In this document: in pieces, positions 3,086-36,477 of the stretch
How positions within the stretch are numbered: position 1 is the first letter of the stretch
How the letters are laid out: each line of letters opens with the position of its first letter
Assembly (NCBI RefSeq): GCF_024721175.1
Contig: NZ_CP099400.1
Coordinates: 338,073 to 402,072, forward strand
Origin: Rhizobium sp. Pop5
GTDB lineage: Bacteria > Pseudomonadota > Alphaproteobacteria > Rhizobiales > Rhizobiaceae
Length of the DNA: 64,000 nt
Direction of reading: 5' to 3'
Translations under genes and position numbers: made by a program
Notes under the pieces: model-generated
What the model saw: only the letters and a program-made list of their open reading frames with translations
What the model was told of the DNA's origin: nothing
The model's database searches: none

Positions 3086-3121
3086 CAACACCTCCCGCCA
3101 AAACCGAAAAGTGTTACCCAT

Positions 3122-3163
3122 GTCTCCGGTACAAAACGTCACCTATGTCTCAGGTCGGGCACA
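3122..3163. repeat. Right terminal inverted repeat of the IS
   Basis: It is the reverse complement of the left end with a few changes, again carrying two copies of the GACATRGGTRAC box. The final bases GGGCACA mirror the TGT start of the left end. Confidence 0.7.
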
Positions 3164-7435: not shown

Positions 7436-7440
7436 CGGCA

Positions 7441-20080: not shown

Positions 20081-22486
20081 TCACCTCAACTCAGCGGTAA
20101 CGCGGAAAATGCCGCCGGCCGACGCGTCGGAGCAGACGACGAAGGTCGAGCCTTCCTGCGCCATGAAGGCGACATTGCCGCCGGCCTCGCAGGGGGTTGC
20201 GCTCCATTGCAGGATGATATCGCCGTTATCGGGCAGCTTTTCCGCAGGGATCTTCACGGCACTTGCCATCCACTCCGTCGCCGACGGCAGGTGGACAGGG
20301 GCGTTCAGTTGCTTTGACAGCCAGGCGGTATAGTTCTGCGCCACGGCAAGCGGCACGTCGTCGGCCGGCTGCTGCGGATTGTCGGCATAGGCCTGTGCTG
20401 CGGCGGGGTCGGAATTGGCGGTGTAATATTCCGCCATCTCGGCGCGGGTGACGGCCTTCGTCTGCATACAGAAGGACTTGTCGATCTTCACGGCACCGTT
20501 CGCGACGCCGAGCATGCCGCCGAGCTCCTTCATCGAGGAGGTCATCAACCGGACATTCTCCAGCGAATAGCTTCCCGCCGGAACGGTCTCGAAGGCGAGA
20601 GTCTGCGAAACCGGGCAGAAGCCGCGTGCCGACAGCGCTTCGAGATCGGCAAGGATCGGCTGGTAGCCGACGATCGCAAGTTTGTAGGCCTCCGCGGCGT
20701 AGCGGCCGTCGGCCTCGCTGAGCTTCGGCTGGATGGCCGCAAGCGTCGGATCGGCGGCACCGGCGCGGTTCGCGATCGAAGCATAGAGATCGGCGACCTT
20801 CTGCTTCAGCGCCGTCGCTCCGTCCTTCGCCGCCATGACATCGGCGATCAAGGCGTCGAAGAGCTTGGTCGCGTCGCCATAGCCTGTCATGGCCGCCGGT
20901 ATCTGCCATTGCTCGCCCTTGGTCTTGGCGTCCGCCATCAACCCCTTCGCCTTGGTGAAATCGGGACTGTCGCCGGCACCGACACGGTTGGCGGTGTCGC
21001 GCTTGGTCGCCGCGTCCTTTTCAGCCGCCGTGAGCGCGGTGAGCGCCTTGGCGAGATCATCAAAAGCGGCCTTCGCGCCATCGTAACCGTCGACCGCGCC
21101 GTGCATCTGTTGGGCGGCGGCGCTGTCGGCGGCAGCTTTCATCTTCGTGTCCGCTTCAGCAAAGGCGGGAGCCTTGTCGCCGCCTGCGGCGGAGGCGGCG
21201 GCTTTCGCCTTCTCGGCATTTTCTTTCGAAATGGCGATCAGCGCCTTGCCGAGGCTGATGGCGGCCTTCTGGTAACCTGGAAGAGCTTTTTTATAGTCTT
21301 CGTCCTTGAGCAGGGCATTGGCCTCGGTCAGCGCCGAGGCACCGGTATCATAGGAAAGCTTTGCCTCGTCACTGGCCGGGCGTTCCGGCGCCCTGGCGGC
21401 GATCGCCTTTTCCTTGCGGCTTTCGGCCTCTTTCTTCCACGTGCCGACATCGGCGACGAGTTTCGGATCGGGCGCCAGCAGTTTCGGAATGGTAACGACA
21501 CCGACCCCGATGCAGATCAGGATCAGCCCGCCGATCATCACGAACTTGGCAGGCGTCCACTTTCTCGGTTTCGGCGCTTCCGGCTGCTGCGGCATGCCGC
21601 CGCGCGGATCCCACGTCATCGGCTGGATGCCCGTCGTCACGCGGGAATATTCGCCGAGCGCATCGGCGCCCATGCGCGGGCGTTGCGCTGGGTCGCGGCT
21701 CAGCATTCTTTCAATCAGGCTTGCGAGCCCCTCGGGAAAGCCGGGGATCAGCACGTCGAGGCGCGGGAAGATATTGGAAGGGTCGAGATGGATGTTCTTC
21801 CAGCTCTGCTCGCGCTGGTGTTCGTCCTCCCAGACCATGACGCTATCGAAAACGCTGGCATAGGTCTGGCGCGGCAGGAAGAGCTTGTAGGCGATCATGC
21901 CCATCGCATAGATGTCGAGGGCTGATGAGGCGGAGAAGGTGCCGCTCGCGTAAATCTCCGGCGCGCCGAATTCCGGCGCATAGGGCGGGATGATGTGCTC
22001 GCCGATCTTCGAGATCAGATGCAGGTTGCCGATCCTGACCGAGAGGCCGGAATAATCCTCCGAGACGTAGATGCACTGGTCCGTCAGCGCATTGTGGGCG
22101 TAACCGGCACCATGCAGCGTCGCCAGCCCTTCGAGAATGTGGCGGCCGATTTCGACGGCGCGTTCGTAGGCCACCATCTCCGTTTCGTCGAGATATTGAT
22201 GCAGCGTCTTCGACGGCCGCTTTTCGACGATGTAGAAATTGTCATCTTCCGGCGACGGCGGGATGAGATCCTCGATTTCGACGAACCGCCGGGCCGTGAG
22301 CGACTTGGCTTCGTTGATCGATGTCCAGACGCGCTCGAAACGGGCTTTGTCCAGCTTCAGCGCCACATCCGGCGCGACGATGAAGACCGAACGGTCCATC
22401 CGCTTGTCCTCAGCGGGATAGACGATGAACTCGTTCTCGTAGATCGGCTCGCCGATCGTGTAGCGGGCGATCAGATCACTTCTCAT
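20081..22486 (-). CDS. Membrane pseudokinase with periplasmic FGE/SUMF-like domain
   Basis: An 801-aa protein, last gene of the protease operon. Residues ~1-280 have a Ser/Thr kinase fold with GAPEIY and DIYAMGMIAYKL (the APE and DxWxxG motifs). However, the glycine loop is absent, the HRD...N motif reads HNALTDQC, and DFG is replaced by IGNL, so it should be catalytically dead. One membrane helix follows at ~315-340 (FVMIGGLILICIGVGVV). An Ala/Lys-rich, coiled-coil or TPR-like periplasmic stretch comes next, then from about 630 an FGE/sulfatase-modifying-like domain (VPAGSYSL, AVTRAEMAEYY, LPSATEWM). It could transmit a signal between periplasm and cytosol. It has an AGGGGGA ribosome site. 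Confidence 0.8.
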   Translation of the reverse strand: MRSDLIARYTIGEPIYENEFIVYPAEDKRMDRSVFIVAPDVALKLDKARFERVWTSINEAKSLTARRFVEIEDLIPPSPEDDNFYIVEKRPSKTLHQYLDETEMVAYERAVEIGRHILEGLATLHGAGYAHNALTDQCIYVSEDYSGLSVRIGNLHLISKIGEHIIPPYAPEFGAPEIYASGTFSASSALDIYAMGMIAYKLFLPRQTYASVFDSVMVWEDEHQREQSWKNIHLDPSNIFPRLDVLIPGFPEGLASLIERMLSRDPAQRPRMGADALGEYSRVTTGIQPMTWDPRGGMPQQPEAPKPRKWTPAKFVMIGGLILICIGVGVVTIPKLLAPDPKLVADVGTWKKEAESRKEKAIAARAPERPASDEAKLSYDTGASALTEANALLKDEDYKKALPGYQKAAISLGKALIAISKENAEKAKAAASAAGGDKAPAFAEADTKMKAAADSAAAQQMHGAVDGYDGAKAAFDDLAKALTALTAAEKDAATKRDTANRVGAGDSPDFTKAKGLMADAKTKGEQWQIPAAMTGYGDATKLFDALIADVMAAKDGATALKQKVADLYASIANRAGAADPTLAAIQPKLSEADGRYAAEAYKLAIVGYQPILADLEALSARGFCPVSQTLAFETVPAGSYSLENVRLMTSSMKELGGMLGVANGAVKIDKSFCMQTKAVTRAEMAEYYTANSDPAAAQAYADNPQQPADDVPLAVAQNYTAWLSKQLNAPVHLPSATEWMASAVKIPAEKLPDNGDIILQWSATPCEAGGNVAFMAQEGSTFVVCSDASAGGIFRVTAELR

Positions 22487-22528
22487 GCACTTGTCCCCCT
22501 GCCATCATTATGTCAATGAAACCGAATT

Positions 22529-23710
22529 CTATTCGCCGGCCAGAAGCGGATCTCCGATCAGGCCCGCGGCCAGGAGCAGGCCGGTCTTGGTATCCCGGAG
22601 CGCAAAGGCGAAACGTGCATCGGCTGTGACGCGGACGAGTTTCGGATCGATGCTTCGCTCGGTGATAGCAGTTGTTGCCGCTGCCGCTTCCGTGCCGTTT
22701 TCGTCGACCTTGATCATCGTCTTCTGCAGGACGCGCGACAAGCTGATGTTTTCCTTGGTAAACCCTGGAAAAGCCGCATCCTTGGCCTTTTCAGGCGCCA
22801 CTCCCATCGCACTGAGTATCGGCATCAAATCACGCCCGTCGTTCAGCGAAAAGCGGGGAAGGAAAATTTCGCCTGCAGCGGGTTCGAATTTTTCGCCCTG
22901 AAGCCAGGAGGCAAGCGCCTTCAGGTCGGACCCGCCGACGCCTTTGCCCGATCGCGCTGCGATCACCACCATGCGATAGGCTTCGCCGGTATAGGCGAGA
23001 TCGACGGCGGCGAAATTGTCATCAAAGCGGAATTTCTGTCCATCGCTGGCAAGATGCATCATCGGCACGGAGACTGTGGAGCCGTCCGGCCGCCGGAAGG
23101 GTGTTGCCGGGCTTTCCTTATCGAAGGAGGTCTTCCATCGAGCCTTGAAGGAGAGCGCGCCGAGGCTGACGAAGCCGCCGCCGGGCGGTGTATCGAGAAT
23201 TGCCGGAATAGCACCTCTTGTGGCGTCCTTGACCCAGCCATTGATGCGCTCGACCGATTTCGGCCCGTCGAGATCCTCGACCGAGGGCGTGATGCGATGG
23301 CCGGCGAGCATGGAGAGGGCATCGGGGACGAGCGCCAGCTTATCGTCGAAGACGATCGCCGCTCCCGCTGCCAGCGGCGCATCGGTTGCTGCGGGCTTCT
23401 CAGGCGTCATCTCGTCGAGCACCTTCTCCGGCCCTTTCACAGCGCCGGCAAAGCCGAGGCTCTTGGCGATTGCCGCCTTGCCTTCGTTTGACGCGCCGAG
23501 GCTCGCCAGACCGAGAGCGGCGGCGAGGCTCGCCGGCGACACCATGACGTTTGCTGCTCCCTCTTTCGCCAGCGTGCGGTCGATGAGGTCGATTGCAAGC
23601 CCCGCCTGCGCGGCAAGGATCGCCTTGCTGTCGATCGCATCGCCGGCACGGGCCGGGACAATTCCCATCAGGGAAACGGCAAGGCCTGCCAGCAGAATGG
23701 ATTTCGACAT
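22529..23710 (-). CDS. Secreted serpin (serine protease inhibitor)
   Basis: A 393-aa serpin with a signal peptide (residues 1-22, ending PARA). Family signatures include NVMVSPASLAAALGLASLGA, INGWVKDATRGAI, and a breach region FALRDTKTGLLLAAG. The hinge DENGTEAAAATT (336-347) has the small residues needed for loop insertion, so it should be inhibitory. The reactive loop continues ITERSIDPK. Aligned on the S-[IL]-x-P pattern the scissile bond is Arg352-Ser353, as in antithrombin. Strict loop-length counting would place P1 one residue later at Ser353. It lies directly downstream (13 bp) of a gene for a trypsin-like protease, its likely target. It has an AGAGGAG ribosome site. Confidence 0.92.
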   Translation of the reverse strand: MSKSILLAGLAVSLMGIVPARAGDAIDSKAILAAQAGLAIDLIDRTLAKEGAANVMVSPASLAAALGLASLGASNEGKAAIAKSLGFAGAVKGPEKVLDEMTPEKPAATDAPLAAGAAIVFDDKLALVPDALSMLAGHRITPSVEDLDGPKSVERINGWVKDATRGAIPAILDTPPGGGFVSLGALSFKARWKTSFDKESPATPFRRPDGSTVSVPMMHLASDGQKFRFDDNFAAVDLAYTGEAYRMVVIAARSGKGVGGSDLKALASWLQGEKFEPAAGEIFLPRFSLNDGRDLMPILSAMGVAPEKAKDAAFPGFTKENISLSRVLQKTMIKVDENGTEAAAATTAITERSIDPKLVRVTADARFAFALRDTKTGLLLAAGLIGDPLLAGE

Positions 23711-23723
23711 GGTTCGCTCCTCT

Positions 23724-26261
23724 TTAGCGGATGCGATAGAATTTGGAATCGAAGGACCACTTGCCCTGGGCGCCGGTCTCGTCGTCGCCGACGATCCTCA
23801 GGCTTCGGGCTAGGTCATAGACATAGTTGAAGGCAGCGCGCTGGCCGACGAGCGGTGTCGGCACATCAGGCAGGTCGAGCACCTCGATCGGCTTGTCGCT
23901 GAGGATGGCGACGACCATGCCGACGCCGGCCGGCCCCTCCACCTGATATTCGAAGCCGATATAAGGATTGCGTGCGTCCGGCACGACCACGGGCCTAGCC
24001 GGATCAAGCCGGTTGTCGCCGCCCTTGGCATTCGGCTTCAGGCCCATCGAGCGCTTGTTCGGGTAAAGCTGCGTCAGCTTGCCCGAGGCGTCGATATCGA
24101 CCAGGATCAGATAGCCGGCCTTCTTGGTGGAGACGCGCATCGCCACTTTGTCGCCGATGCTGACCGAGGTGCCGGGCAGCACGTCGACGGCAACGCCCGC
24201 TTCATTGTCGGTCTTCAGCGTATTTTCGACGGCGGCGACCGGGGTCTTCGCCTCCTCACCCGTGACGACATCGCGTCCGAGCGCGTCCGGCAGGCCGTAG
24301 AATTGCGGTACCGGCGTGAAGCGGCAGTCCTCGGCATGCGCCCGGCAATATTCGCCCGATTTGCGCCTGACGTAGTCGAGCAAAGCTGCGTTGCTGACAT
24401 TCGGCTTGTCGGCAGCGCGCGCCACCCCTTCCTGCACCCCCTCGATGAAGCGGCGGGTGAAGACGCCGAGCGGCGGCTTGGCTTCCTTGTCGACGAGCGC
24501 CCACTGCCCGGAATTGACGGCCGACCAGACCATTGCCGTCTCACCGCCGAATGAGAATTTCGCTTCCTTGCCGGAGCGGTTCGGCGGTTCCAGCGATGCC
24601 AATGCCGGGCCGAGGCAGCGCACCGTGCCGCCGGCCGGTGCCGCGACGGCGCTGCGGCTGCCGGGGCCGACATGACAGGCGTCGATCAGCAGCGTGACAT
24701 GGCGATCCTTGAGGCTGTTCAGTCGCGCGGCGATTTCGGTCTCGCGGATCTGGTTGGTGACGGTCACTTTGCCGCCGTCGCGCACCAGCTTCGCATCGGC
24801 CGCAACGAGCGTCGGGCTCGTCGTCGCCTCGGCGCCCATTTCTTCCGAACCCTGGCCGCTGAAATAGAGGAAGATGCGGCTGCCGGATTGTGATTGGCGC
24901 ACAAGCCAGTCATCGATTTCGGCCAGGATCGCTTCACGGCTCGCCTTGCGGTTCGTCAAAGTATGAATCTGTTCCGGGCGGTAGGAGAGCGTCTTGACGA
25001 GGAAGAGCTGCATCGCCTTCACATCGTCGGCCGAGCCCGTCAGCTTCGCCTCGCGCATTTCGTAGTCGTCGATGCCGATCAGAAGCGCGCGGTCGCCGGG
25101 AGAGCTTTCGACGGCGGGCGTCTCGACGGTTGGTGCCTGAACCTCGGGCTGATTGACGGTGGGTGCATCGGCGGCCGGCGTCTTATCCGGTGTGGTAGTG
25201 TTACCGGGCGGAGTGGTGATCGAAAGATTGGATTCCAGCTGACCGGCCGGCTGCTGTTTCTGCTTCGGCCCGACGGTAATGTCGCTTCCAAGAGGCTTGC
25301 GCTTGGTATCGATCGCTGCGACCTGGTCGCTCGCGGCCGGCCCCGACGTGTCGGGCGCATTCGGCACGTCGCCATCGGTCTTTGTGGCGATCCAGTCGCG
25401 GAAGGCGGCGACGCGGGTATAGACGCCATAATGCTCCGCCTCGGCGCAGCCGGCGCCCCAACTGACGATGCCCAGCTGGATCCAGCGCTTGTCGGGACGC
25501 TGGGCAACGAGCGGCCCGCCGCTATCGCCCTGGCAGGCGTCCTTGCCGCCCTCTGCATAACCGGCGCAGACATTGCGCTCATCGATCGGGTTCATGCGCA
25601 TCGAGCTCTCGCGATAGGCGGCGCGGCAGTCTTCCCGCGAGACGATCGGCAGCTCGACTTCCTGCAGCTCGGTCGGCAGGTATTTGTCATCCCAGCCGTG
25701 ATCGGCCTTGGTGTAACCCCAGCCGGTGACGACGGCGGTGTGGCCGGCGGCCTCCACCGCATCATCCGAGGCGGAGGCCAGGATTGCAGGCTTCGAGACA
25801 GCGGGTTCGGCGAGCTTGATGAGGGCGATGTCGTTGGCGAAGACCTTGCGATCGAAATCCTCATGGATGATCACGTCTTCTACCGCGAGGCCCGGTTTGT
25901 CGGGGCCGTCGACGGAGATCACCTTGTCGATCTTCGACTTTCCTTCGACGATCAAAAGATCTCGGGCGAAGAGGTCCTGCTTGCCGGAACGGCCGCTGGT
26001 GACGCAATGGGCGGCCGTCAATATCCAGCGCGGCGCGATCAGCGAGCCGCCGCAATGGCCGCCAAAGCGGCCGCGCTGTTCGGGATCGGGCGCCAGGATC
26101 TTCACCTGCCAGGGCCATTCACCCTTTTTCGCCGCCTGGCCGCCGATGACGCGCCCGCCATCCTCGCCGGCAAAATCCGTATCCTGCTGCGCAAGCACCG
26201 GAGAGGCCAGAAGCAGAAGGACGGCCGCAATGTTGAGGACCCTGCTGATTGGCGTGCTCAT
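23724..26261 (-). CDS. Secreted trypsin-caspase-DUF4384 fusion protein
   Basis: An 845-aa exported protein. A signal peptide (1-24) and a short propeptide end at Arg37-Val38 (R|VIGG), the classical zymogen cleavage site. The trypsin domain follows (38-295) with His85 (TAAHC), Asp144 (NDIAL), Ser247 (GDSGGP), Asp241 at the S1 base (trypsin specificity), and six Cys placed as in trypsin. A Pro/Thr-rich linker (~300-388) leads to a caspase-fold domain (~390-660) with Cys529 (LIDACH), but the catalytic His is Gln470 (FSGQGS). The C-terminus is a DUF4384 module (~680-800). The start overlaps the stop of the upstream caspase gene by four bases. The caspase half is probably a pseudo-enzyme or receptor, while the trypsin half looks fully active. 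Confidence 0.93.
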   Translation of the reverse strand: MSTPISRVLNIAAVLLLLASPVLAQQDTDFAGEDGGRVIGGQAAKKGEWPWQVKILAPDPEQRGRFGGHCGGSLIAPRWILTAAHCVTSGRSGKQDLFARDLLIVEGKSKIDKVISVDGPDKPGLAVEDVIIHEDFDRKVFANDIALIKLAEPAVSKPAILASASDDAVEAAGHTAVVTGWGYTKADHGWDDKYLPTELQEVELPIVSREDCRAAYRESSMRMNPIDERNVCAGYAEGGKDACQGDSGGPLVAQRPDKRWIQLGIVSWGAGCAEAEHYGVYTRVAAFRDWIATKTDGDVPNAPDTSGPAASDQVAAIDTKRKPLGSDITVGPKQKQQPAGQLESNLSITTPPGNTTTPDKTPAADAPTVNQPEVQAPTVETPAVESSPGDRALLIGIDDYEMREAKLTGSADDVKAMQLFLVKTLSYRPEQIHTLTNRKASREAILAEIDDWLVRQSQSGSRIFLYFSGQGSEEMGAEATTSPTLVAADAKLVRDGGKVTVTNQIRETEIAARLNSLKDRHVTLLIDACHVGPGSRSAVAAPAGGTVRCLGPALASLEPPNRSGKEAKFSFGGETAMVWSAVNSGQWALVDKEAKPPLGVFTRRFIEGVQEGVARAADKPNVSNAALLDYVRRKSGEYCRAHAEDCRFTPVPQFYGLPDALGRDVVTGEEAKTPVAAVENTLKTDNEAGVAVDVLPGTSVSIGDKVAMRVSTKKAGYLILVDIDASGKLTQLYPNKRSMGLKPNAKGGDNRLDPARPVVVPDARNPYIGFEYQVEGPAGVGMVVAILSDKPIEVLDLPDVPTPLVGQRAAFNYVYDLARSLRIVGDDETGAQGKWSFDSKFYRIR

Positions 26262-27877
26262 AGCTTGGCTCCGGCGGAGGTATAGAGAACCGTAAATCCG
26301 ACGCGCGCCTCTTCGGGCAGGAGTTCGCCGAGGCGTTTGGCGATATTGCCGGCGGTGCGGCGCCTGTCGTTCTGCTTGAGGAATTCTATGAGATCAGGCA
26401 TCGGCGTTGCAGAGGTGACGGCAACGAGCAGGTCCGTGCCGAAGGGGGCTACGACGGAAAGATCGAGATCGAAGCTCGCCGACATCTCTGCATCGACCTC
26501 TCTCTCGCCGGGATAGAGGAACTGCACGGTTCCATCACCGGTGATATCGAAGAGCACGAGCTTGCGGCCTGATAAATCCGAAACCGTGACGCCGACCCGC
26601 TCGCCTTCGCGATGAACTGCATCGGAAGGCGTGACGCGCACGGTCTGCGGGTTTGCCTCTGACAGTCGCTTCAGCGTGTCGAGCGCGGCCATCCGGTCGA
26701 CGACGAAAGGCATATCACCGGCGCCGATGCTGGAGGAGACGACATCGCCACCAGCGATCGCCTCGTGCTTTTCGGGGTCGAAGACGAGTTCGGCATTGGC
26801 ACCGTCCGTCAGCTTGAACGGCGTGATGGCCGGATCGATTCCTTGCAGCACCGGATCGGTGCCGAGGGCGGCGATACTGATCGGCGCGCGCGCGGCCGGT
26901 GGCGGCGGAACGTTCGATTTCTCCGATCCCGTTGTGGTGCCTGCACCGTCGTAGTTATAGACGACGGCGTGGTCGAGATCGGTTCCGGGCGGGCTCTCCG
27001 TGAAGATGTTCTGCCGCTGGTCGGTGAACTGATAGACCGACTGGCGCACATATTCGAAGAGTTCGCGGCGGCTGACGGCACCGTCGCCGTTGCGGTCGGC
27101 GGCGCCTTCGAAGGCGCGGGCCGTCGCATAACTCAGTGCGCCGCGTTTCTGCGGAATGCCGGGAATTGATATCTCAGGCGATTTGGTGTTCTCGTCGACG
27201 GCGGCGAGGAAGGTCAGCCGTCTGTAATCGAAGCCGGTGGAGAGCGCATCCGCCGTGGTCGAAATCGGCGCGAGGTCGTCCTCCTCGATCGTATAGGAAG
27301 GCGCTTGACGCCAGGTGATGTCAGCACCGCGCGGATCGACATCCCGAGTCATGCCGCCAGCATGGCAGGTGTCGGCGATGAAGAGGACATCGGCACCCTT
27401 GGCCTCCAGCTTGTGGATCAGCACCTTGAATTCGTCGCCGAAGATGCGCTCGCGCGATCCGGGCAGGCGCGTGTCGAAGCCGGCAAGCACATAGACCTCG
27501 TCGCGGCCGCTCGGTTTGGAGCCCCGGACGCGCTCCGGTTCGCTTGATCCGTGGCCGGCGATGCCGAGCACGACGAGATCGCCGGAGCCGGCCCTTTCCG
27601 TGACGGCCTCGATCGCATGGAAGATACCTTCGCGGTCGGCCTCGCCGTTTTTCAGGAGCGTCATGTCTTCGACGCCGACCGAGCGCAGCGATAGGGAAAG
27701 GTCCTCGGCGTCGGCGACCGCGCCGTGCAGCGGCGGAACATTGCGATAGAGGTCGATGCCGATCAGGACTGCCCTGACCGTGCCGCGTTCGGGCGCCTCG
27801 ATCGTTCTTGCCAGGCTGTCGGTGGCCGTCATCGCCAAGAGGGCGAGTGCTGCGGCCATGGAAACGGATGCGGACAT
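26258..27877 (-). CDS. Secreted caspase-like protease with EF-hand and DUF4384-like domain
   Basis: A 539-aa protein. An N-terminal signal (about 1-23) leads into a peptidase C14 domain starting RAVLIGIDLY. The catalytic dyad is intact: His109 (IAGHGS) and Cys171 (ADTCHAGG). Residues 261-272 (DRNGDGAVSRRE) form a canonical EF-hand loop, suggesting Ca2+ binding near or inside the caspase region, as calcium activates many metacaspases. A Pro-rich linker follows, then a DUF4384-like domain (~390-500). ATG 27877 is chosen because GGGGAGG lies seven bases upstream; a TTG two codons earlier is possible. It is second in the operon and overlaps the trypsin-caspase gene. Confidence 0.9.
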   Translation of the reverse strand: MSASVSMAAALALLAMTATDSLARTIEAPERGTVRAVLIGIDLYRNVPPLHGAVADAEDLSLSLRSVGVEDMTLLKNGEADREGIFHAIEAVTERAGSGDLVVLGIAGHGSSEPERVRGSKPSGRDEVYVLAGFDTRLPGSRERIFGDEFKVLIHKLEAKGADVLFIADTCHAGGMTRDVDPRGADITWRQAPSYTIEEDDLAPISTTADALSTGFDYRRLTFLAAVDENTKSPEISIPGIPQKRGALSYATARAFEGAADRNGDGAVSRRELFEYVRQSVYQFTDQRQNIFTESPPGTDLDHAVVYNYDGAGTTTGSEKSNVPPPPAARAPISIAALGTDPVLQGIDPAITPFKLTDGANAELVFDPEKHEAIAGGDVVSSSIGAGDMPFVVDRMAALDTLKRLSEANPQTVRVTPSDAVHREGERVGVTVSDLSGRKLVLFDITGDGTVQFLYPGEREVDAEMSASFDLDLSVVAPFGTDLLVAVTSATPMPDLIEFLKQNDRRRTAGNIAKRLGELLPEEARVGFTVLYTSAGAKL

Positions 27878-27899
27878 GGCCAAACCTCCCCTCGCCCGG

Positions 27900-29840
27900 C
27901 TATTCGCGCCGCCATTCGACGCGGCGGTTCAGCGCGTCGATATCGTCTTCGGTAAGGTTCGCCGTCGCCGTGACGTCGACCGGCTCGGAGGCTCCGCGGC
28001 CTTCGGCGTCAATTGTCGCATCGATGCCTTTGCTCTTCAGGAAATCGGCGACGGCCTTGGCGCGGCGCTCGGAGAGCTTCTGGTTATAATCGTCGCCGCC
28101 TCGCCGGTCAGTATGGCCGATCAGGATAACACGGCCGGGCTTCTGCTCCTTCAGCGCTTCCAGCAATTCCTGCGCCGCCTCCGTGCCGATCGAGGTAAAG
28201 GTCGACTTGTCGAAATCGAAGGTGATCGGAACCGGGATCGAGACCGGCACGATGCCGCGGACGTTTTCCGAATAGATGCCGCCAAGCACGCCGCTGCGGT
28301 GATCCTTCTCGGCTGGCACGAAGCTACCTTGCGGGTTGTCGCTCGTCGGATTGGCGGCAAGGATGCGGGCCTGGGCGGCGCGCTGGATGAGATCGGAGAT
28401 CGTCTCGGCCGGCGGCGCTTTCGGCGTGCGGGTCTCGTTCTTGATGATCTCGATCGCTTGCTGGTAATCGGCGGCGGCATCGGCGAAGCGGCGGCCGGAG
28501 AAATAGATCTCGCCGAGTGTGGCGGAGGCCTGCCAGAGCACTTGCGGGCTGTCGGCAGCGACGAGCAGCGGCTCGTAATCGGCGACCGGCTTGTCGGCGG
28601 CCATCATTTCCTGGGCTGCGGCGAGCCGGAGTGCAGCGACGCGGCGTTGGGCATTGATCTGGAATTGCCCGCAATCGGCGCTGACGGCGATTGCATCGGC
28701 CTCCGTCGCGGCAGCGTTGATATCCTTTGCGGCGACGGCGGTGTTCAGCTTGTCGAGAAGGGCGTTGCAGGCGGGCGTATCGGCATTCGCCATCTCGATC
28801 TCTTCGCCTTGGCCGGCAGCCTCCGGCTCGGCCGAGCGGCCGAGGTTTATCTGCGGCATCTTGATGCCGAAGCCGCCGGGCAACTTGAATTGCGGCATCT
28901 TGATCTGCGGCATCGGCAGTTTCGGCATCTTCATCTGTGAAGACTGCGACGACTGGTACGATTGCGACGACTGCATGGGCCGGTTGGACGTGCTGCCGGT
29001 GGCGGGGCCGATCAGCTCCAGCTCATCGGCGGAAAGCTCCTGGCCGGGCGCCAGATTGGTGACGATCTTGTATTTCTTCGGCGGCTGCGACGTGGCCTGT
29101 TCGACAGGCTGGGGAGCAGGCTTCTTCGGCTTTTCGATCGCCGGTTCCGGCTTCTTGGCGACTTCCTGTTTCACGACAGGCTTCGGCTTCGCAGCAGCCG
29201 GAGGTTTCGGCGGCTCAACGGGCGGCTTTGCAGCCTGTTCGACCGGCGCGGGCTTTGCCGCGGGGGCGGCTGCGACGGGCGGGGCGGCGGGCATGCTATC
29301 GACCGTCGTCAGCATCAGCGTCTTGCTGCTGATCTTCGTGCCGAGGCTGCGGGCTTCTTCGAGGCTGCGGGAAACGGCGTCCATTCCGCCGTCGATCGAG
29401 CGGAACATGCCGCTGCCGCTGCCGCCGAGATCGGCAAAAATGGTCAGCGGCTTGGAGGAATAGAAGACCTTGATCTGTTCCTGGCCGACCGGGCCGGAAA
29501 CCTGCAGTCTGGCGCCGCTCGCCGGATCCGGCACCTGCACGCGCTTGCCGGCGCTAACGAGAGCGTCGGTCTGATATTTGTTCGGGAAAAGCTTCACGAC
29601 GGAGCCGTTCGGCGAGACGTTCAGCACCGTCACATAGGAATTCTCAGTCGACTGGATGAAGAGGCCGACGACTTCGCCGATGGCGTATTTCGCCTCAGCG
29701 CGATCGAAGGTAATGCTGACGGGTCCGGCCTGGGCGGGCGCTTCGGTCAAGGTGCGTTCGTTCTGCGCCTCGACGGCGGGAGCCATCGGGAAAAGCGAAA
29801 GAAATGTGGCTGCGGCTAGGATGGCTTTGCGGGTCAGCAT
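27900..29840 (-). CDS. OmpA-domain protein with N-terminal DUF4384
   Basis: A 646-aa protein, first gene of the protease operon. It has a signal peptide (1-25, ending AVEA), then a DUF4384 domain (~38-130; VGLFIQSTENSYVTVLNVSPNG), and a long Pro/Lys/Ala linker (~190-265). A Gln/Ser/Met-rich segment with repeated MPQIKMPQ-type units comes next, then a TPR-like helical part. The C-terminal OmpA domain (~535-646; TFDFDKSTF, GHTDRRGGDDYN, LSERRAKAVADFL) binds peptidoglycan. It would anchor the system to the cell wall and may recruit the caspase proteins through the shared DUF4384. The start at 29840 follows AGGGAGG; 16 bp separate it from the next gene. Confidence 0.88.
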   Translation of the reverse strand: MLTRKAILAAATFLSLFPMAPAVEAQNERTLTEAPAQAGPVSITFDRAEAKYAIGEVVGLFIQSTENSYVTVLNVSPNGSVVKLFPNKYQTDALVSAGKRVQVPDPASGARLQVSGPVGQEQIKVFYSSKPLTIFADLGGSGSGMFRSIDGGMDAVSRSLEEARSLGTKISSKTLMLTTVDSMPAAPPVAAAPAAKPAPVEQAAKPPVEPPKPPAAAKPKPVVKQEVAKKPEPAIEKPKKPAPQPVEQATSQPPKKYKIVTNLAPGQELSADELELIGPATGSTSNRPMQSSQSYQSSQSSQMKMPKLPMPQIKMPQFKLPGGFGIKMPQINLGRSAEPEAAGQGEEIEMANADTPACNALLDKLNTAVAAKDINAAATEADAIAVSADCGQFQINAQRRVAALRLAAAQEMMAADKPVADYEPLLVAADSPQVLWQASATLGEIYFSGRRFADAAADYQQAIEIIKNETRTPKAPPAETISDLIQRAAQARILAANPTSDNPQGSFVPAEKDHRSGVLGGIYSENVRGIVPVSIPVPITFDFDKSTFTSIGTEAAQELLEALKEQKPGRVILIGHTDRRGGDDYNQKLSERRAKAVADFLKSKGIDATIDAEGRGASEPVDVTATANLTEDDIDALNRRVEWRRE

Positions 29841-30050
29841 TGGAAACCTCCCTCTTCGAACAATCTCACACTGTGCTGAAGATGAGAATAGCACTGACCG
29901 GCGAAATTGGGATGGCTGTGCCTGTCTTGCTTGAGGGAGGGTTACAAATTATTTGGAACCTCGAAGAACCGGTAAGGCGAAGACGTGAGCAAGACTCGCG
30001 ATCGGTAATATCCGCCGCCTGATATATTCGGTTCGACTGCCAGGAGAGGG

Positions 30051-30428
30051 TTAGTTCTTGGGCTTCTGGCCGGCCGATTTCAGGATCGAGATCAGGTCGC
30101 TCATTCCCTCGGGCGAGGAATTGTAGAGCCAAAGGATATCCGGATTGTCTGTGGTGAATTCCTTGCCGGGGGCTGAGCCCATGTCGCGGCCGGGCGAGGT
30201 CGCATCCGGCAGCTTGCTTTCGCCCGGCGTCAGTCCCTTGGCCTGTTCGTGTTCGGCAATGATCGCGGCAGCGGCGGCAAACGCCTTTTCGTCATGTTGG
30301 CGGAGTGCCGAAAGCGAGGGATTTCGCTTGGCCAGCGCATCCTCGACTGGCCCGGAATAGGCAAGCTCAGGTAGCTGCAGCGCCAGCAGAAGGCCGATCG
30401 ACAAGGTTACGAGCCGGAATTTCGTCAT
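30051..30428 (-). CDS. Small secreted protein, unknown
   Basis: A 125-aa protein with a clear signal peptide (MTKFRLVTLSIGLLLALQLP, ending AYS) and a short acidic mature part. I recognise no domain. Gene order and direction match the protease operon, but a 210-bp gap separates it from the OmpA gene, so it may be transcribed separately. The mature protein contains no Cys. A role as substrate or regulator of the neighbouring proteases is possible but unsupported. Confidence 0.65.
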   Translation of the reverse strand: MTKFRLVTLSIGLLLALQLPELAYSGPVEDALAKRNPSLSALRQHDEKAFAAAAAIIAEHEQAKGLTPGESKLPDATSPGRDMGSAPGKEFTTDNPDILWLYNSSPEGMSDLISILKSAGQKPKN

Positions 30429-30624
30429 CGTCGTCAAATCCGTTATCAACCCGATGCGCCGCGCTATGGCTGGCAGCACGACAATAGGGAGAGGCCGGAA
30501 GGAAGGCAACGGCGCTCAGTGCCAATCGATTGGGAGGGTTGAAATCGACTGGCAGCGGCGCTTTGGCTCTTTGTTTTATGTATGTCGTTGACCTCGCACT
30601 GCTGCAATTTCGGGGCGGCATACA

Positions 30625-31215
30625 TCAGAGGATCTTCAATTCCTGCAGGCCGAGGCGGAGATTGCGCAGCATTTCCCCGAAGATTTCCTCGATCTTGCCA
30701 GTCGACCAGACGACCATGGTGCCGTAGGGCGAGCGGGTGCGCTGCATGAAGCCCGCCGTCTCGAAATCGATCAGCGTCTTGCGACAGGTCTCGCTCGACA
30801 TCACCGCGACAAGGAAACGGGCGAGATTGGACTGGTCGATCGCGCCTGATTTATCGGCCCAGTTCTGGATCAGCCGCGGCTTGGTGTCGGCGGTGAACAT
30901 CGAGGCCAGCGCGCGGTCCTGTGAAAGTCCGAGGCGCTGGAGCTTGGCGGGATCGCGGGTGAGCGAGACCACGTAATCATTATGCAGGTCGGCGAAGCGT
31001 TCGATATCTTCCGCCGTGCTGATGCCAAAGACCTTCATCGAATAAAGGAACTCTGCCATCAGATAGGTCGGCTCAGAACGCAGCTGCGCCAGATGCTTTT
31101 CATCCTTGCTGGCCGAGGCCGCGCAGACGCGATCGGAGAAGCCTATCCGCGCCGCGCGGACCTGCTCCAGCAGGCTTACGTCGAGCGCCAGTTCGTCACC
31201 GTTCCATTCCAGCAT
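30625..31215 (-). CDS. Putative winged-helix regulator
   Basis: A 196-aa cytosolic protein with no signal. The C-terminal third (ETCRKTLIDFETAGFMQRTR, then SPYGTMVVWSTG) looks like a recognition helix plus wing of a MarR-type fold; the N-terminal part is helical. The start at 31215 is preferred because AGGGA lies six bases upstream; another ATG is two codons earlier. It is divergent from the propeller-NlpC gene and could control the protease region. DNA binding is inferred from pattern only. Confidence 0.6.
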   Translation of the reverse strand: MLEWNGDELALDVSLLEQVRAARIGFSDRVCAASASKDEKHLAQLRSEPTYLMAEFLYSMKVFGISTAEDIERFADLHNDYVVSLTRDPAKLQRLGLSQDRALASMFTADTKPRLIQNWADKSGAIDQSNLARFLVAVMSSETCRKTLIDFETAGFMQRTRSPYGTMVVWSTGKIEEIFGEMLRNLRLGLQELKIL

Positions 31216-31364
31216 AAGCATTCCCTGCCAGCAAATCTTCGAGACGATGATCTTGTACTATCGCAGAGGCAGATCTCCAAATCGTTTGGAAAGCAACGGC
31301 TTGCTGGCGAGGCGCATCTAGCCTACCATTTTAAAGACTTGGCAGCCTTTTTGAGGTCGAGGCA

Positions 31365-32969
31365 ATGCGTAGTTTGGGGTCGCATATTCTGTTTGCCGCG
31401 GCACTTGCGGTCGCCTCGCCAGGTTTTGCCAAAGACACCGTGATGATCGAGCTTCGCAGTGGCGACGGCGGCCGTTCTGTCGGCATCGTTTCCTCGAGCG
31501 AGGAAGTGGAGGCATCGGGGCCTGCGGCGATCACTGTCGGCGATGACGGTACCATCTACATCCTCGACCAGAACAACGGCCGCGTGCTCGCCGTCGATGC
31601 CGAACGCTCGCAGGCCGATCCCGAAATTCTGCCGCTGCCGGAAAACGCGGCGCCGGAGGATCTCGCCGTCGTCCATAACGAACTCTACCTCTGGTCGGAT
31701 GGCGTCGTGCCGCTCGAGCGCTCCACCGATGCCGACGGCCGGTCGCAGACGTTGCGCGCCGTCGACGGCGGCGATGCCGACGATTACACCCGCTCCGTCT
31801 TCGCCTCCATGGGCTCGGTGCCGCCAGGTCCCTTGAACAGCATCATCGATGAGATCGGCCGCAGTACCAGCCGGCCGGAAGCCCGCCCACCGATCGTCCA
31901 ATACGTGCCGAGCCGCGGGCTCGGCGATATCGTCGCGGAGGTCTCGGCGGCAAACGACAAGGCGGAAATCCTGCTGCGGCGCAGCAGCTCGGAAGAGAAT
32001 TTCCTGTCGCTGTCGCTGACATCGGAAGGGCGGATCGGGACCGTCGAACTTCTCGATATCGACACGACAGGCAGGCCCTACGCGCTGGTCGAGCTCGTGC
32101 CCGCCGACCAGCCTGATCGCACCGGGATGCTGGTGGTTCGCTTCACGCCGAACGGGGCGATGGACCGTGTCTACGACCTGCCGATCGATGCCGGCACGGT
32201 GTTCTCGAGGCGTTTCGTCGCGATCGGTCCGCGCGGCGACGTGCTCTATTTAAGATCACAGGAGAGCCGGGCGCAGGTGCTGAAACTCGACGGCAGGGAG
32301 CCCGGCCGCAAGCTCGCCGTCGCCAAGCCTGCCAAGCCGTTGAACACAGGCAAGCCAGGCAAGACGCCGAAGGTCGCGATCGTACCGAAATCGCGCAGCG
32401 ACGTCATCGAGCGGGCGATCGGCTTCGAAACGCTGAACTGGCTTGTGACGCCGACCGCCTATGGCGGCGATCCCGGGCCGGGCTGCGCCAACATGAACCG
32501 GTTGCGCCGGCCGATCTACCTGATCGGCAAACGCGGGCAGACGGTGAAGGGTGTTCCCTACTGCTGGGGCTGCAAGACGCCGCTGGAGGATTTCGTCGAG
32601 GGTGTGGAGAAAGGCCAGACCGCAGGCAATGTCTGCACCAAGAGCTTGCCGCAATCCAATATCCTCGGCGTCGACTGCTCCGGGTTCGTCAGCGATGCCT
32701 GGGGCCTGAAGATGCACGTATCGACCCGCGCCATTCCGGGCATCGCCAAGCGACTCTCCGACCCCTGGTCGATGCAGCCGGGCGACGCTCTGAACAAGCC
32801 GGGCTCGCACGTGCTCCTGTTCATGCGCTTCACCGACGACCGCAAAGTGGAGGTGATGGAAGCCTCGCCCAACGCCTGCAAAGGCCGCGTCTGCCGCAAT
32901 ACCTACTCGCTCGGCAGCCTGTTGATGCGCGGATACCAGCCGGTGCGTTTCAAGGGGCTGGATGGCTGA
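31365..32969 (+). CDS. Secreted beta-propeller / NlpC-P60 hydrolase
   Basis: A 534-aa protein with a signal peptide (1-22, ending GFA). Residues ~35-330 contain NHL-like beta-propeller repeats (AAITVGDDGTIYILDQNNGR). The C-terminal ~150 residues fit NlpC/P60: Cys438 in GVDCSGFVSDAW and His482 in GSHVLLF, the catalytic pair of peptidoglycan endopeptidases or amidases. Several extra Cys nearby could form disulfides. It is the only rightward gene in this block and could remodel the wall around the OmpA-anchored protease system. Confidence 0.78.
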   Translation: MRSLGSHILFAAALAVASPGFAKDTVMIELRSGDGGRSVGIVSSSEEVEASGPAAITVGDDGTIYILDQNNGRVLAVDAERSQADPEILPLPENAAPEDLAVVHNELYLWSDGVVPLERSTDADGRSQTLRAVDGGDADDYTRSVFASMGSVPPGPLNSIIDEIGRSTSRPEARPPIVQYVPSRGLGDIVAEVSAANDKAEILLRRSSSEENFLSLSLTSEGRIGTVELLDIDTTGRPYALVELVPADQPDRTGMLVVRFTPNGAMDRVYDLPIDAGTVFSRRFVAIGPRGDVLYLRSQESRAQVLKLDGREPGRKLAVAKPAKPLNTGKPGKTPKVAIVPKSRSDVIERAIGFETLNWLVTPTAYGGDPGPGCANMNRLRRPIYLIGKRGQTVKGVPYCWGCKTPLEDFVEGVEKGQTAGNVCTKSLPQSNILGVDCSGFVSDAWGLKMHVSTRAIPGIAKRLSDPWSMQPGDALNKPGSHVLLFMRFTDDRKVEVMEASPNACKGRVCRNTYSLGSLLMRGYQPVRFKGLDG

Positions 32970-33213
32970 AGAGGATCGTCTCACGCCCGATTGGGAATGT
33001 TCTTCGAAATATGGGCTGGATATTTGAAGAGGTGTAAGGCGCTATCGTGATAGGCGAGCTTAGAAGTGGCCACTGTTGACAGATGACGTACATTGCTCCA
33101 CCGGCAGCACTCTGAGCGATACGCCGCCTCGATGGTAAGCGCTGCCCATACGCAAGCTCAAACATCTTGAGGTCGCGTACAGAAACCTCCCCATCACGAT
33201 GCCCATTGAAGCG

Positions 33214-33873
33214 TTAAATCGCCGAAACGACGGATCGAGCTTGTGCGGACCCCGAGGCCAGGGCGAGCGCAACGGCCGCCGACACTGCTTCTGCGGTGGT
33301 CAGTGAGACCTCCGCGCTGAGAGAAGTCATGTCGATATCCAACTTGCCGTAGTCCACCATATAATAACCTGATCGAGTTTCGATAACGGCATCAGGCCTG
33401 ATCGAAAGGAGATCCTGTGCCATTGTCCCAACGAAAACAGGCCCTCCCCAGACGTAACGGAAGGAGTAGATTGGAATGCCAGTCGGCGATATGCCGAGAC
33501 GACGAATATGAGTTTTGAGGCGGCGATCAGACCAACCCGGATCGCTGGAAGGCCCGCCAGTATCTCCGGAAGAGGAACTACTCGATGAGGAACTGCTGGA
33601 TGAGGAACCACCGCCCATTCCGGAAGAACCGCCGGAGCTCGAAGAGCTACCTGAGCTGGAACCCTTGTCGGAACTGGCGAAAGTCCTCTGATCGCTTCTT
33701 GCGACGTTCCCGGCTGATACTCTTGTGACGGTCGGCGGATTCTTTCTAACCGGCTCTTTGGTGGCAAATAACGTTTGCGCTCCTGGATCAAAAATACAGC
33801 TCTGCAAGATGGCGCCCGAGCCGGCGATGAAGGTAGAGCAAAGGAGTACACGGATGGTGATTTTGCTGGTCAT
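33214..33873 (-). CDS. Probable lipoprotein with Ser-rich stalk and S74-like chaperone domain
   Basis: A 219-aa protein. A signal with a lipobox-like LQSC near residue 30 is followed by a low-complexity Ser/Gly stretch (~75-110). Next comes a tail-fibre-type C-terminal domain (SDRRLKTHIRRLG, IPIYSFRYVWGG, VGTMAQDLL, RPDAV, VDYGKL), the intramolecular chaperone / peptidase S74 family, which trimerises and in phage proteins cleaves itself at the Ser of SDRRLK. In rhizobia similar free-standing proteins exist. ATG 33873 is taken over an upstream GTG (33888). It lies nine bases after the stop-side neighbour, the caspase-Sel1 gene, on the same strand. Confidence 0.75.
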   Translation of the reverse strand: MTSKITIRVLLCSTFIAGSGAILQSCIFDPGAQTLFATKEPVRKNPPTVTRVSAGNVARSDQRTFASSDKGSSSGSSSSSGGSSGMGGGSSSSSSSSSSSSSGDTGGPSSDPGWSDRRLKTHIRRLGISPTGIPIYSFRYVWGGPVFVGTMAQDLLSIRPDAVIETRSGYYMVDYGKLDIDMTSLSAEVSLTTAEAVSAAVALALASGSAQARSVVSAI

Positions 33874-33897
33874 ATAGAGCGTCCCCACGATCGCCAG

Positions 33898-36477
33898 TTA
33901 AAAGAGATCATACCTCGGATTTCGCTTCACCCACGTCGCTTTCGCGAGAAGCACCAGCCTCTCGTTCAACGATTTAGTCTTCGGAAGAGCTTTGAGTTCT
34001 TGCGAAGTTAGTTCGCCCGAAAAAGCTTCTGCTGCCTTCTTTTTTGCGGCATCAGCTAAAGATGCGAGTTCCTTGTCCGACTGTTTTTTAGGGTCGCCGG
34101 TTCCGGGCCGGTTGAGTGCGCTTGCAAGTGAGAAATAGTGTGCAGCGGTGACTAGGCTTTCGGAGTTCGAGCCGTCGCCCTTAGCCATTTTTGCTCGTTC
34201 GAACGCACTCCAGTAGTCGCCGCGCTCCGCGCCCATCTCCAGCCATCTGATGGCTTCAGTCTCGTCTTTGGGCACTCCCAAGCCATCTCTGTACATAAGG
34301 CCTATATTTCGCGGCGCATAAGGCTGGCCGCCTTCTGCTGCCCTTTTAAAAAGCTCAAGGGCCTTCTCAAGATCCTGCGGTACACCTTTGCCCGCGCGAT
34401 AAATCATCCCAAGGCTGTTCATCGAATATATGTCGTCTCGCTTGAGACCTGACTCGTAAAAGCGAACGCCACGTTCTACATCGGCTGTGACATTGACGCC
34501 GTTTAAGAAGATGTAGCCAAGTTCGTTCATTGCGTAGGTATGGCCCAAGTCGGCGGCCTGCAGCATTAGCTTCAGGCCTTCTTGGGTATCGGCTTTGGCA
34601 CCTCTGCCATAGTAGAGGCTTTTCCCGTAGGCGTAGAGCGCAAAAGGATCTCCCTTCTTCGCGCCCATGGCGGCTATCTCGCTCGACTTTTCTAGGTTCG
34701 TCGGTACAGACGCTCCGATGAGATAGAGGGCAGAGATCTCAGAAATTGCCCTTACATGTCCGGCATCCATCGCCTTCTTGATCGTCTCAAAGGCCGTCTT
34801 CGTGTCGCGGTTGGCAAGCTGGGCGCGGCCGAGCTGGTAGATGAAGCGCGCGACCTCGGGATAGGTCTTCATCGCCTCGGTGCAGGCACGCACGGCAACG
34901 GCTGGGTCGATTTCGTTCGGTAGTTTGCCTGCTGTCACTCCCTGCAGGTCGAGGGGCGCTGCGGCTGCGGTATCACAAGCGTCGAGCGTCGGCTTGAAGC
35001 TGACGGTCGCGGGCGGCAGGTCGTCGTTTGCGGCTTGCAGCGTCACGGCGAAGGTCTGGTTTTCCGTACCGATCTGCGGCTCGTAGGAAAGGGCGGGAAT
35101 ATCGGCTGCCTCAAGCACATGGCCGAGCCCGATCACCCGGTCTCCGGCACGCAGCGTGCCTTTATCAGGCAGGGCGGCGACCTTGAAGGTCATTTCTCCC
35201 GCCGAAGCGGGTACTACGGGCAGGCTGGCCTTGACGGGGCCGACGCCGATCGTTGCGTCGATATCGCGCGGCAGTTCCTTCAGATAGGCGCCGGCATCGG
35301 CAAGCCGTGTCTGTTTCTCCTGTTCCAGCTGGGCGAGCTTGGCGCCGGCATCGGCCGAGACGGTGATCGCGACCACCCCCTGGGTCGCCTGGCCGTAAGG
35401 GTCGCTGACGGTATAGCCGATCAGGCCGACGGTTCCGGCGGCAACGCCCGTGGAATCGTAGGTCAGCGCCGTCAGCGCCGCGGCGGGAAGTTTTGCGCCC
35501 TGCTCGACCGGCTTGCCGTCGAAGGTAAGCTTGCCGGTTTGCGGAAGCTGATTAAGGGTGACGATAAGAGCCGAGCCTGTCTTGTCATGCGGCGGGGCAA
35601 TGGAAAGTTTCGTGGCGGCAGCACCTTCCGGCACGCTCGCCTGCTGCATTGGTTCGACGCTCGGCGGCGGCGGCGCCGGAATGAAATAGAAGCTGTCGGT
35701 CAGCGAGGAGTTTTCCCAGGGGACCTGCTTGCCGTCGGTCATCGCGATCACGTCGCGACGCACATCAGTCAGGACCTGGCGGATTTCCTTGTTGGGCTCG
35801 CTGGCGCGTTTGATGAAGGATTCTGAATATGGGCTGAGCGCCCCGCTGCCGTCGAGCGCCACCTGGCCGGGTTCGGTGGAAAAGGCGATCAGGCTGCCAA
35901 GATCGCTATCGATGCGCGCAAGTCCGCGTGTCGCGCCGACCGGTTCCAGCTTTTCGGCCATCCAGAATTTCTGCGCGTTGAACGGATTGTTGCGGCAGGC
36001 ATCGAGGAAGATCAGCTGCACGCGCGAATTCTGTTTGAGGTGGTTCAGGATCAAGTCGAGCGGCATGGTCTGCGTCTCGACGTCGTAGGGTGTCTCAAGC
36101 GTCGCATCGACCGGCACGATGAAGTTCTGCCCCCCCACCTGGATGCCATGGCCCGCGTAATAAATAAGGCCGGCTTCGGCATTGTTGGTCGAACGCAGGA
36201 AGCGACGCACGGTATCTTCGAGACCGATGCGGTCGACATTAACGCCGATCGTCACGTCGAAACCGGCCGCGCGCAACGTATTGGCGACCTCTTCGACATC
36301 ATTGGCGGGATTGGGAAGCGAGGGTAGCGTCTTGTAGACCGAATTGCCGATGACGAGGGCCACGCGGCGTCCGCTCTCCTCGGTAATGGCGGCATGGGCC
36401 GTGCCGAGCGACAGCAGTATTGCCGCGGCAATCAGCAGATAGGCATACAGTCTCCTGACGGCGTGAAACTTGGGCAT
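33898..36477 (-). CDS. Secreted caspase-like protease with Sel1 repeats
   Basis: An 859-aa protein. A signal peptide (1-29, ending AHA) is followed by a caspase/peptidase C14 domain (RRVALVIGNSVY) with intact His110 (YYAGHG) and Cys161 (LDACRNNPF). The middle part (~280-520) has cadherin-like or Ig-like repeats (LTYDSTGVAAGTVGLIGYTV). The C-terminal half carries about five Sel1/TPR-type repeats (GMIYRAGKGVPQDLEKALEL, GLGVPKDETEAIRWLE). Rhizobia often have such caspase-Sel1 proteins singly; here it is next to two further caspase-fold genes. The ribosome site is weak. The substrate is unknown; the related orthocaspases cut after Arg or Lys. Confidence 0.88.
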   Translation of the reverse strand: MPKFHAVRRLYAYLLIAAAILLSLGTAHAAITEESGRRVALVIGNSVYKTLPSLPNPANDVEEVANTLRAAGFDVTIGVNVDRIGLEDTVRRFLRSTNNAEAGLIYYAGHGIQVGGQNFIVPVDATLETPYDVETQTMPLDLILNHLKQNSRVQLIFLDACRNNPFNAQKFWMAEKLEPVGATRGLARIDSDLGSLIAFSTEPGQVALDGSGALSPYSESFIKRASEPNKEIRQVLTDVRRDVIAMTDGKQVPWENSSLTDSFYFIPAPPPPSVEPMQQASVPEGAAATKLSIAPPHDKTGSALIVTLNQLPQTGKLTFDGKPVEQGAKLPAAALTALTYDSTGVAAGTVGLIGYTVSDPYGQATQGVVAITVSADAGAKLAQLEQEKQTRLADAGAYLKELPRDIDATIGVGPVKASLPVVPASAGEMTFKVAALPDKGTLRAGDRVIGLGHVLEAADIPALSYEPQIGTENQTFAVTLQAANDDLPPATVSFKPTLDACDTAAAAPLDLQGVTAGKLPNEIDPAVAVRACTEAMKTYPEVARFIYQLGRAQLANRDTKTAFETIKKAMDAGHVRAISEISALYLIGASVPTNLEKSSEIAAMGAKKGDPFALYAYGKSLYYGRGAKADTQEGLKLMLQAADLGHTYAMNELGYIFLNGVNVTADVERGVRFYESGLKRDDIYSMNSLGMIYRAGKGVPQDLEKALELFKRAAEGGQPYAPRNIGLMYRDGLGVPKDETEAIRWLEMGAERGDYWSAFERAKMAKGDGSNSESLVTAAHYFSLASALNRPGTGDPKKQSDKELASLADAAKKKAAEAFSGELTSQELKALPKTKSLNERLVLLAKATWVKRNPRYDLF

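Follow-up and report, generated by a model that had tools for sequence, protein, structure and literature searches.

What does a bacterial serpin inhibit when its gene lies directly behind that of a trypsin-like protease? The question is raised by a 64,000-nucleotide stretch of DNA from Rhizobium sp. Pop5 (contig NZ_CP099400.1, positions 338,073 to 402,072; hereafter the window), which belongs to contig C3 (402 kb) in a genome of 6.7 Mb and carries an operon encoding a serpin, a trypsin fused to a caspase fold, an orthocaspase, an OmpA-domain protein and a pseudokinase. The closest named relatives of the window proteins belong to the R. leguminosarum/etli/pisi group. A first-pass annotation made from the letters alone had described ten genes here, five of them as a tight leftward operon; these open reading frames (ORFs) and the operon's intergenic gaps (16, -4, 13 and 42 bp) were recovered exactly. 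The operon genes are as follows.

20081..22486, minus strand: transmembrane pseudokinase with an N-terminal kinase fold (Pkinase, 4.4e-12), one transmembrane stretch (by eye) and a C-terminal FGE-like domain
22529..23710, minus strand: serpin, probably exported, hinge GTEAAAAT, reactive site E-R↓S (Serpin, 3.7e-55)
23724..26261, minus strand: trypsin zymogen (R↓VIGG, triad, Asp189) fused to a pseudo-caspase and DUF4384, probably exported (Pfam, motifs)
26258..27883, minus strand: orthocaspase, probably exported, His and Cys intact, EF-hand-like loop (C14, 4e-12; motifs)
27900..29894, minus strand: DUF4384-OmpA protein, probably exported, likely start ~29840 (DUF4384, 1.1e-20; OmpA, 3.2e-16)

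Pfam matches above cut-off were obtained for Trypsin, Peptidase_C14 and DUF4384 in a single protein, and for Serpin, Peptidase_C14, DUF4384 with OmpA, Pkinase, and, in a flanking gene, Peptidase_C14 with Sel1. The statement that nearly all products carry Sec signals or a lipobox holds in so far as signal-like N-termini were read by eye, and fails for the kinase and a flanking winged-helix protein, on which none was seen. Because of their signal sequences and of shorter annotated orthologs, the OmpA-DUF4384 protein and a small protein encoded at 30051..30509 probably start internally, at ~29840 and ~30428, respectively.

The serpin, the trypsin and the caspase-fold proteins

PF00079 covered positions 2-370 of the 370 residues of the serpin (188 bits). 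The small-residue hinge at P15-P9, GTEAAAAT, was invariant save at two positions among 10 sequences, and the reactive site E-R-S was invariant in 10/10 cluster-family sequences with a mean identity of 61%, this stretch being more conserved than 97% of the five-residue windows in the serpin. (The loop could not be read in the row from the Neorhizobium galegae locus L064, for which protein P0072 was substituted.) HMMER paired the reactive-site Arg with the Met in the antitrypsin-like loop of conserpin-AATRCL, a residue that we take to be P1. In the AlphaFold model (pLDDT 86.5) residues 339-352 in the loop region form a strand, and in the PDB the model is matched best by protease-cleaved miropin; both are consistent with loop insertion, and are not proof of it. 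Judged by its sequence, the serpin looks inhibitory, and a covalent complex with a protease is predicted. Miropin and its relatives, which are inhibitory bacterial serpins, share with it the serpin fold, the inhibitory hinge and the signal sequence, whereas the window serpin differs in having a conserved S1A protease gene of matching specificity adjoining it (PMC8233489; this and the other papers are cited from excerpts).

The trypsin domain carries the activation site R↓VIGG and the motif KDACQGDSGG. Asp189 in trypsins favours cleavage after Arg or Lys. In the alignment of relatives (matches with E under 1e-30, with at least two loci present twice, L012/L032 and L023/L061), the His-Asp-Ser triad was intact in 46/46 rows and Asp189 in 45/46, and the activation site was Arg or Lys in all 45 readable rows, followed by ILDG in L054 and L055. 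The PDB chains nearest to the trypsin domain were plasma kallikrein and factor XI. With Arg at P1 of the serpin and Asp189 in the trypsin, the bait therefore fits the pocket of the protease.

The first-pass annotation counted three caspase-fold proteins, and all three gave C14 matches above cut-off. However, the trypsin-fused domain reads SGQG, with Gln in place of the catalytic His, so that three active caspases were ruled out. The His was absent, replaced by Gln, in 37/39 rows of relatives, one of which (L059) is a caspase-DUF4384 protein without trypsin; the Cys was absent in 6/39, all six from family f27, and both residues were retained in genomes G614 and G805. Among nine aligned sequences of the linker between trypsin and caspase, no Arg/Lys cleavage site was conserved beyond the closest relative. 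The dyads of the orthocaspase at 26258-27883 (AGHG/DTCH) and of the flanking caspase-Sel1 protein at 33898-36477 (AGHG/DACR) are intact, and the family of the former kept His and Cys in the 37 rows with readable motifs, five further rows aligning C-terminally only. The EF-hand assigned to this orthocaspase stands as a visible motif; it gave no Pfam match and is not retained in all relatives. G805 (L108:4971-9274) shows the reverse of the Rhizobium arrangement: its fused caspase is intact and its separate caspase is dead, with Ala and Gly for His and Cys.

The Gln-Cys trypsin–pseudo-orthocaspase–DUF4384 architecture of Rhizobiales was published in 2019 (PMC6426788), and the window protein, with the same architecture, the same dyad and an intact trypsin triad, belongs to this group. 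The excerpt of that paper treats the protein alone, and the serpin, the operon and the Tad linkage described below are not in it. No description of the operon or of that linkage was found in the literature searched, judged by title or abstract. The view that the set is undescribed thus holds, as far as this literature goes, for the operon and its Tad-like/FHA linkage, which is new, and not for the trypsin–pseudo-caspase–DUF4384 architecture, which is known.

Linkage of the operon and a Tad-like locus

The linkage of serpin and trypsin genes, checked against scattering, was conserved: among 148 Rhizobium genomes, the serpin was directly 3′ of the trypsin-caspase gene, on the same strand and 14-104 bp away, in 44/44 of those having both. 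The serpin (orthologs at 60% identity or more), the trypsin-caspase gene and the FHA gene of a Tad-like locus were each found in 44, and the three sets were identical. Left uncounted were serpin matches in G336 (32% identity) and G288 (E 9e-4), partial matches to P0003 in G211, G213, G249, G297, G325 and G342, and FHA matches at E ~1e-3 in G213, G238 and G289. The trypsin-caspase gene matched in two pieces in three of the 44 genomes (G215, G223 and G232), and the FHA gene of G232 is broken. All 26 named loci with related proteins were from Rhizobium, and in a family sample of 199 genomes the serpin was present in four, two of them at 31% identity.

Outside the genus, the serpin was directly behind the trypsin in Neorhizobium galegae pNgVX (L064), Chthonobacter rhizosphaerae G614 (L051), G445, G410 (L054, L055), G478 (L058) and the other-order genome G805 (L108), so that the adjacency spans six genera, five families and two orders. 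The order OmpA–caspase–trypsin–serpin is common to families f1, f11, f30 and f133. An artefact or a chance cluster was ruled out, as the gene order recurs in other families. In G624 and G586 the two genes lie within 10 kb without being adjacent. Of 397 genomes sampled from the order, 17 contain a serpin and 47 a trypsin-domain match (E <= 1e-20); the match was present in 10/17 serpin genomes versus 37/380 others (Fisher p 2e-6) and, by genus, in 8/10 serpin genera versus 24/131 (p 1e-4), p values that relatedness inflates. Nine of the 10 genomes with both have them within 10 kb. Of 119 genomes sampled across the class, four contain a serpin and, beyond the window's own, the trypsin core adjoins it in G805 only. 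In the pNgVX record several cluster genes, including the serpin, are in broken frames; the intact serpin protein P0072 exists. A WD40-repeat protein with at least 11 repeats is encoded just behind the trypsin gene of G586 (L052:2182-5823).

A Tad-like/FHA locus with genetic ties to the operon escaped the first-pass annotation. It lies to the left of the operon and is convergent with it.

6872..10530, plus strand: prepilin peptidase (6872-7435) and TadE/TadG-like pseudopilin genes, one TadE match below cut-off
11458..12396, plus strand: RcpC/CpaB (2.9e-23)
12418..14316, plus strand: TadA-type ATPase (T2SSE, 1.4e-55)
14379..16144, plus strand: TadB and TadC, overlapping ORFs 14379-15242 and 15014-16144 (T2SSF)
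16147..17022, plus strand: FHA-domain gene, end of the Tad-like locus (FHA, 5.3e-11)

The FHA and serpin genes share a contig in 40/44 Rhizobium genomes, on opposite strands, with FHA 3′ of the operon and 2.6-41 kb away. FHA adjoins the pseudokinase gene in R. lusitanum-like G240, N. galegae, G614 and G494 (loci L051, L061, L064 and L085), and a check of 19 genomes found FHA in five, all with a pseudokinase-bearing cluster. The pseudokinase itself was present in 6/397 genomes of the order sample: five of them carry the Tad-linked cluster (one, G494, lacking the serpin), and the remaining match is weak. Its designation follows from HNA in place of HRD, with loss of the catalytic Asp, in 32/32 rows, and from GNL/GDL at DFG. 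The FGE half of the earlier pseudokinase-FGE label fared less well: this domain scored 15.7 bits (E = 0.012) in the window protein, below the cut-off of 23.3, and 36.4 bits in the N. galegae ortholog (L064), the one ortholog above it. Taken together, these results suggest that the pseudokinase and the FHA protein may connect the protease operon with the Tad-like machine.

The window locus shares TadA, TadB, TadC, RcpC, TadE/G and prepilin peptidase with Tad/Flp pilus loci and differs from them in its FHA gene, its convergent protease operon and the lack of a secretin: no PF00263 match was found on contig C3 and two were found on contig C2, and such a distant one could serve. Three further features were seen here: a second TadA/T2SSE-type ATPase (4867-6183, minus strand) about 6 kb from that at 12418-14316 (plus strand), an FHA-like N-terminal stretch (by eye) in the latter, and a small ORF like a Flp pilin precursor (6568-6858, plus strand; by eye) upstream of the prepilin peptidase gene.

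Proposed module and competing explanations

We consider it moderately probable that the products of the operon form an exported proteolytic module, specific for Arg and equipped with its own suicide inhibitor, that serves the cell surface or attachment. The gene content, the linkage, the conserved motifs and the co-occurrence with the Tad-FHA genes are observed and speak for this reading; from them we infer export, activation, inhibition, partner contacts, purpose, a cascade and coupling to the Tad-like locus. The trypsin would be secreted as a zymogen and activated, perhaps autocatalytically, by a cut after Arg. Contacts of its pseudo-caspase and DUF4384 domains may tie it to partners in the envelope, the active orthocaspase and the OmpA-DUF4384 protein, the latter expected to bind peptidoglycan and to anchor the module. 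The serpin encoded by the next gene would offer Arg-Ser in its reactive loop as a trap for the trypsin and possibly for the orthocaspase as well, and so set the level above which periplasmic proteolysis starts. A MarR-like protein encoded nearby probably controls expression, and the pseudokinase, spanning the inner membrane, probably conveys state between periplasm and cytosol, in concert with the FHA protein belonging to the linked Tad-like apparatus. Most likely the module would process surface structures, or control their quality, for attachment and root colonisation. The first-pass annotation had proposed a wall-anchored, exported protease system with its own inhibitor; the linkage and the match of P1 Arg to Asp189 agree with it, whereas a wall-binding (OmpA) domain is present on one protein only.

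A more elaborate version, which we hold only tentatively and think on the whole doubtful, is an envelope relay of eukaryotic logic, in which a self-activating trypsin, a pseudo-caspase scaffold, an orthocaspase and a dedicated serpin, tuned by the pseudokinase and FHA protein, would license or remodel a secretin-less Tad-like apparatus for root attachment. If true, prokaryotes would have an example of a protease cascade that includes its own serpin. The swap in G805, where the fused caspase is the active one and the separate caspase the dead one, would in this reading hint that pairing a live with a dead caspase is a general design. Zymogen–serpin cascades are known from animals, for example in coagulation; an Arg-P1 serpin and a kallikrein/factor XI-like trypsin domain are shared with them, whereas the window set is bacterial, has one trypsin, and its sequential activation is conjectural.

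Functional hints come from R. leguminosarum (johnstonii) 3841, which carries the cluster on pRL11. By gene count from pRL110598, an L-fuconate dehydratase (PMC7105596), the OmpA-DUF4384 gene is pRL110591, and a barcoded-transposon study found that lentil colonisation specifically requires pRL110591, an "outer membrane protein" (PMC11103875). The main text of that study is silent on caspases, proteases, peptidases, serpins, tad and pili, and no further member of the cluster appears in it under a family name. By the same count, the next gene downstream of the operon is pRL110586, encoding a DUF982 protein, which is 2.3-fold up in a praR mutant with enhanced root biofilms (PMC4149787). A role at the surface or in attachment fits both sets of data. 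A literature search for R. etli locus tags found none. In the window a DUF982 gene lies downstream of the pseudokinase gene (19505-19816, minus strand).

Several findings weigh against a dedicated pairing of serpin and trypsin, or against the proposed role. No serpin was detected in G494, a congener of G614 that carries the cluster together with its Tad part and whose trypsin is intact. Six f27 genomes carry the trypsin–pseudo-caspase, usually beside another caspase, with no serpin adjoining, and in G645 (f27) the serpin is on a different contig and lacks the Arg. Four Rhizobium genomes without the cluster (G213, G249, G297 and G325) gave a trypsin-domain match, two with internal stops, and no serpin. 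The serpin is therefore not obligatory. Conversely, a strong trypsin match near the serpin is lacking in 8/17 serpin genomes of the order sample, and two of the three class-sample serpin genomes besides the window's own lack an adjoining trypsin core. Five f50 genomes have a serpin with the Arg and no strong trypsin match, and G679, likewise without one, has the order caspase–serpin–winged-helix gene. The serpin may thus have other targets. Arg also stands at P1 in 8/11 serpin rows without a trypsin neighbour, so that the argument that this residue proves trypsin to be the target was rejected. A tree built on 27 chosen rows (L107 and L109 left out) requires four changes of the linked state, and much of the co-occurrence within Rhizobium reflects shared descent of one plasmid lineage. 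The identity of pRL110591 rests on counting genes from pRL110598. Lastly, serpins with a target in their own organism have precedents in archaea: Pnserpin and Tkserpin, likewise prokaryotic, act on an endogenous protease, a subtilisin-type one that differs from the window trypsin (PMC8233489).

As the chief alternative, it is possible, if doubtful, that the main target of the serpin is instead the active orthocaspase, an Arg/Lys-specific cysteine protease that the trypsin may activate. Orthocaspases cut after basic residues (PMC6426788), and plant and algal serpins inhibit metacaspases, namely AtSerpin1 with AtMC9 and AtMC1, and CrSERPIN; the Arabidopsis pairs, too, join a serpin and a caspase-fold protease of one organism, although in a plant and with no trypsin partner mentioned in the excerpt (PMC10609998). 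In G679 the gene immediately ahead of the serpin encodes a caspase whose dyad is intact, and PF00089 matches are weak (best 1.3e-21), and in 3/5 f50 genomes it lies about 8 kb from a caspase. Yet in six genera it is the trypsin gene, not the caspase gene, that immediately precedes the serpin, and nearness to a caspase is weak evidence because caspases are common in the class. G805 has kept the serpin with its separate caspase dead, although its trypsin-fused caspase is intact. Defence against foreign proteases (plant, protozoan or bacterial), the trypsin and the caspases being exported enzymes that have nothing to do with it, is unlikely: serpins of gut bacteria do block host proteases (PMC8233489) and the relatives originate from roots and nodules, but the near-invariant reactive site does not suggest an arms race, and the serpin adjoins a matching protease in five families.

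Two other explanations bear on the neighbourhood as a whole. That an old plasmid block has carried Tad genes, proteases and serpin together without functional coupling seems quite unlikely. The variable distance between FHA and serpin in Rhizobium, with unrelated genes between them, is what such a block would give; however, order and orientation are kept in other families, the four-gene core also occurs in another order, and the presence of Tad-FHA is identical to that of the operon across the Rhizobium genomes. A system for programmed lysis or against phages or predators, in which the trypsin frees a caspase effector held by the serpin, is improbable. Bacterial conflict systems are known to use caspase and trypsin domains as effectors, and the PADLOC caspase model was matched. 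However, these were single-protein matches, the proteins look exported (by eye), and the only published phenotype found is colonisation (PMC11103875).

Returning to the exported Arg-specific module, its interest is that a serpin is tied to a protease of fitting specificity by a gene order found in five families and two orders. Owing to this linkage, the question of the serpin's target is directly testable in strain 3841. A bacterial serpin with a likely target opens the role of bacterial serpins to testing, and the operon would give a biological setting to the trypsin–pseudo-caspase–DUF4384 proteins.

Flanking genes and minor observations

To the right of the operon lie the following genes.

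30051..30509, minus strand: small protein with a signal-like N-terminus, likely start ~30428, kept in L051, L061, L064 and L085
30625..31221, minus strand: winged-helix, MarR-like protein without signal, probable regulator
31365..32969, plus strand: NHL-propeller protein with a signal-like N-terminus and a possible NlpC/P60 C-terminus (propeller matches, alignment)
33214..33888, minus strand: possible lipoprotein with a sub-threshold S74 domain
33898..36477, minus strand: orthocaspase with Sel1 repeats, dyad intact, probably exported (C14, 3.1e-39; Sel1, 1.2e-31)

A Pfam search at 1e-3 gave no match for the small protein, and a PDB search with the winged-helix alignment gave nothing at E up to 1. 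The protein described as an NlpC/P60 propeller matched propellers and has a visible DCSGF motif; its NlpC/P60 match is at E = 0.24, and a PDB sequence search with the NlpC alignment mainly matched propellers and no NlpC/P60 chain. The S74 label of the lipoprotein was not upheld (20.9 bits, cut-off 22). In strain 3841 (L032:7519-9078) an isoprenylcysteine methyltransferase gene and a small gene replace the S74 gene at the same place. At the left end of the window are genes for a vWA protein, TROVE/Ro60-like (173-1729, plus strand), and an IS481-like transposase/integrase-core protein (1898-3142, minus strand).

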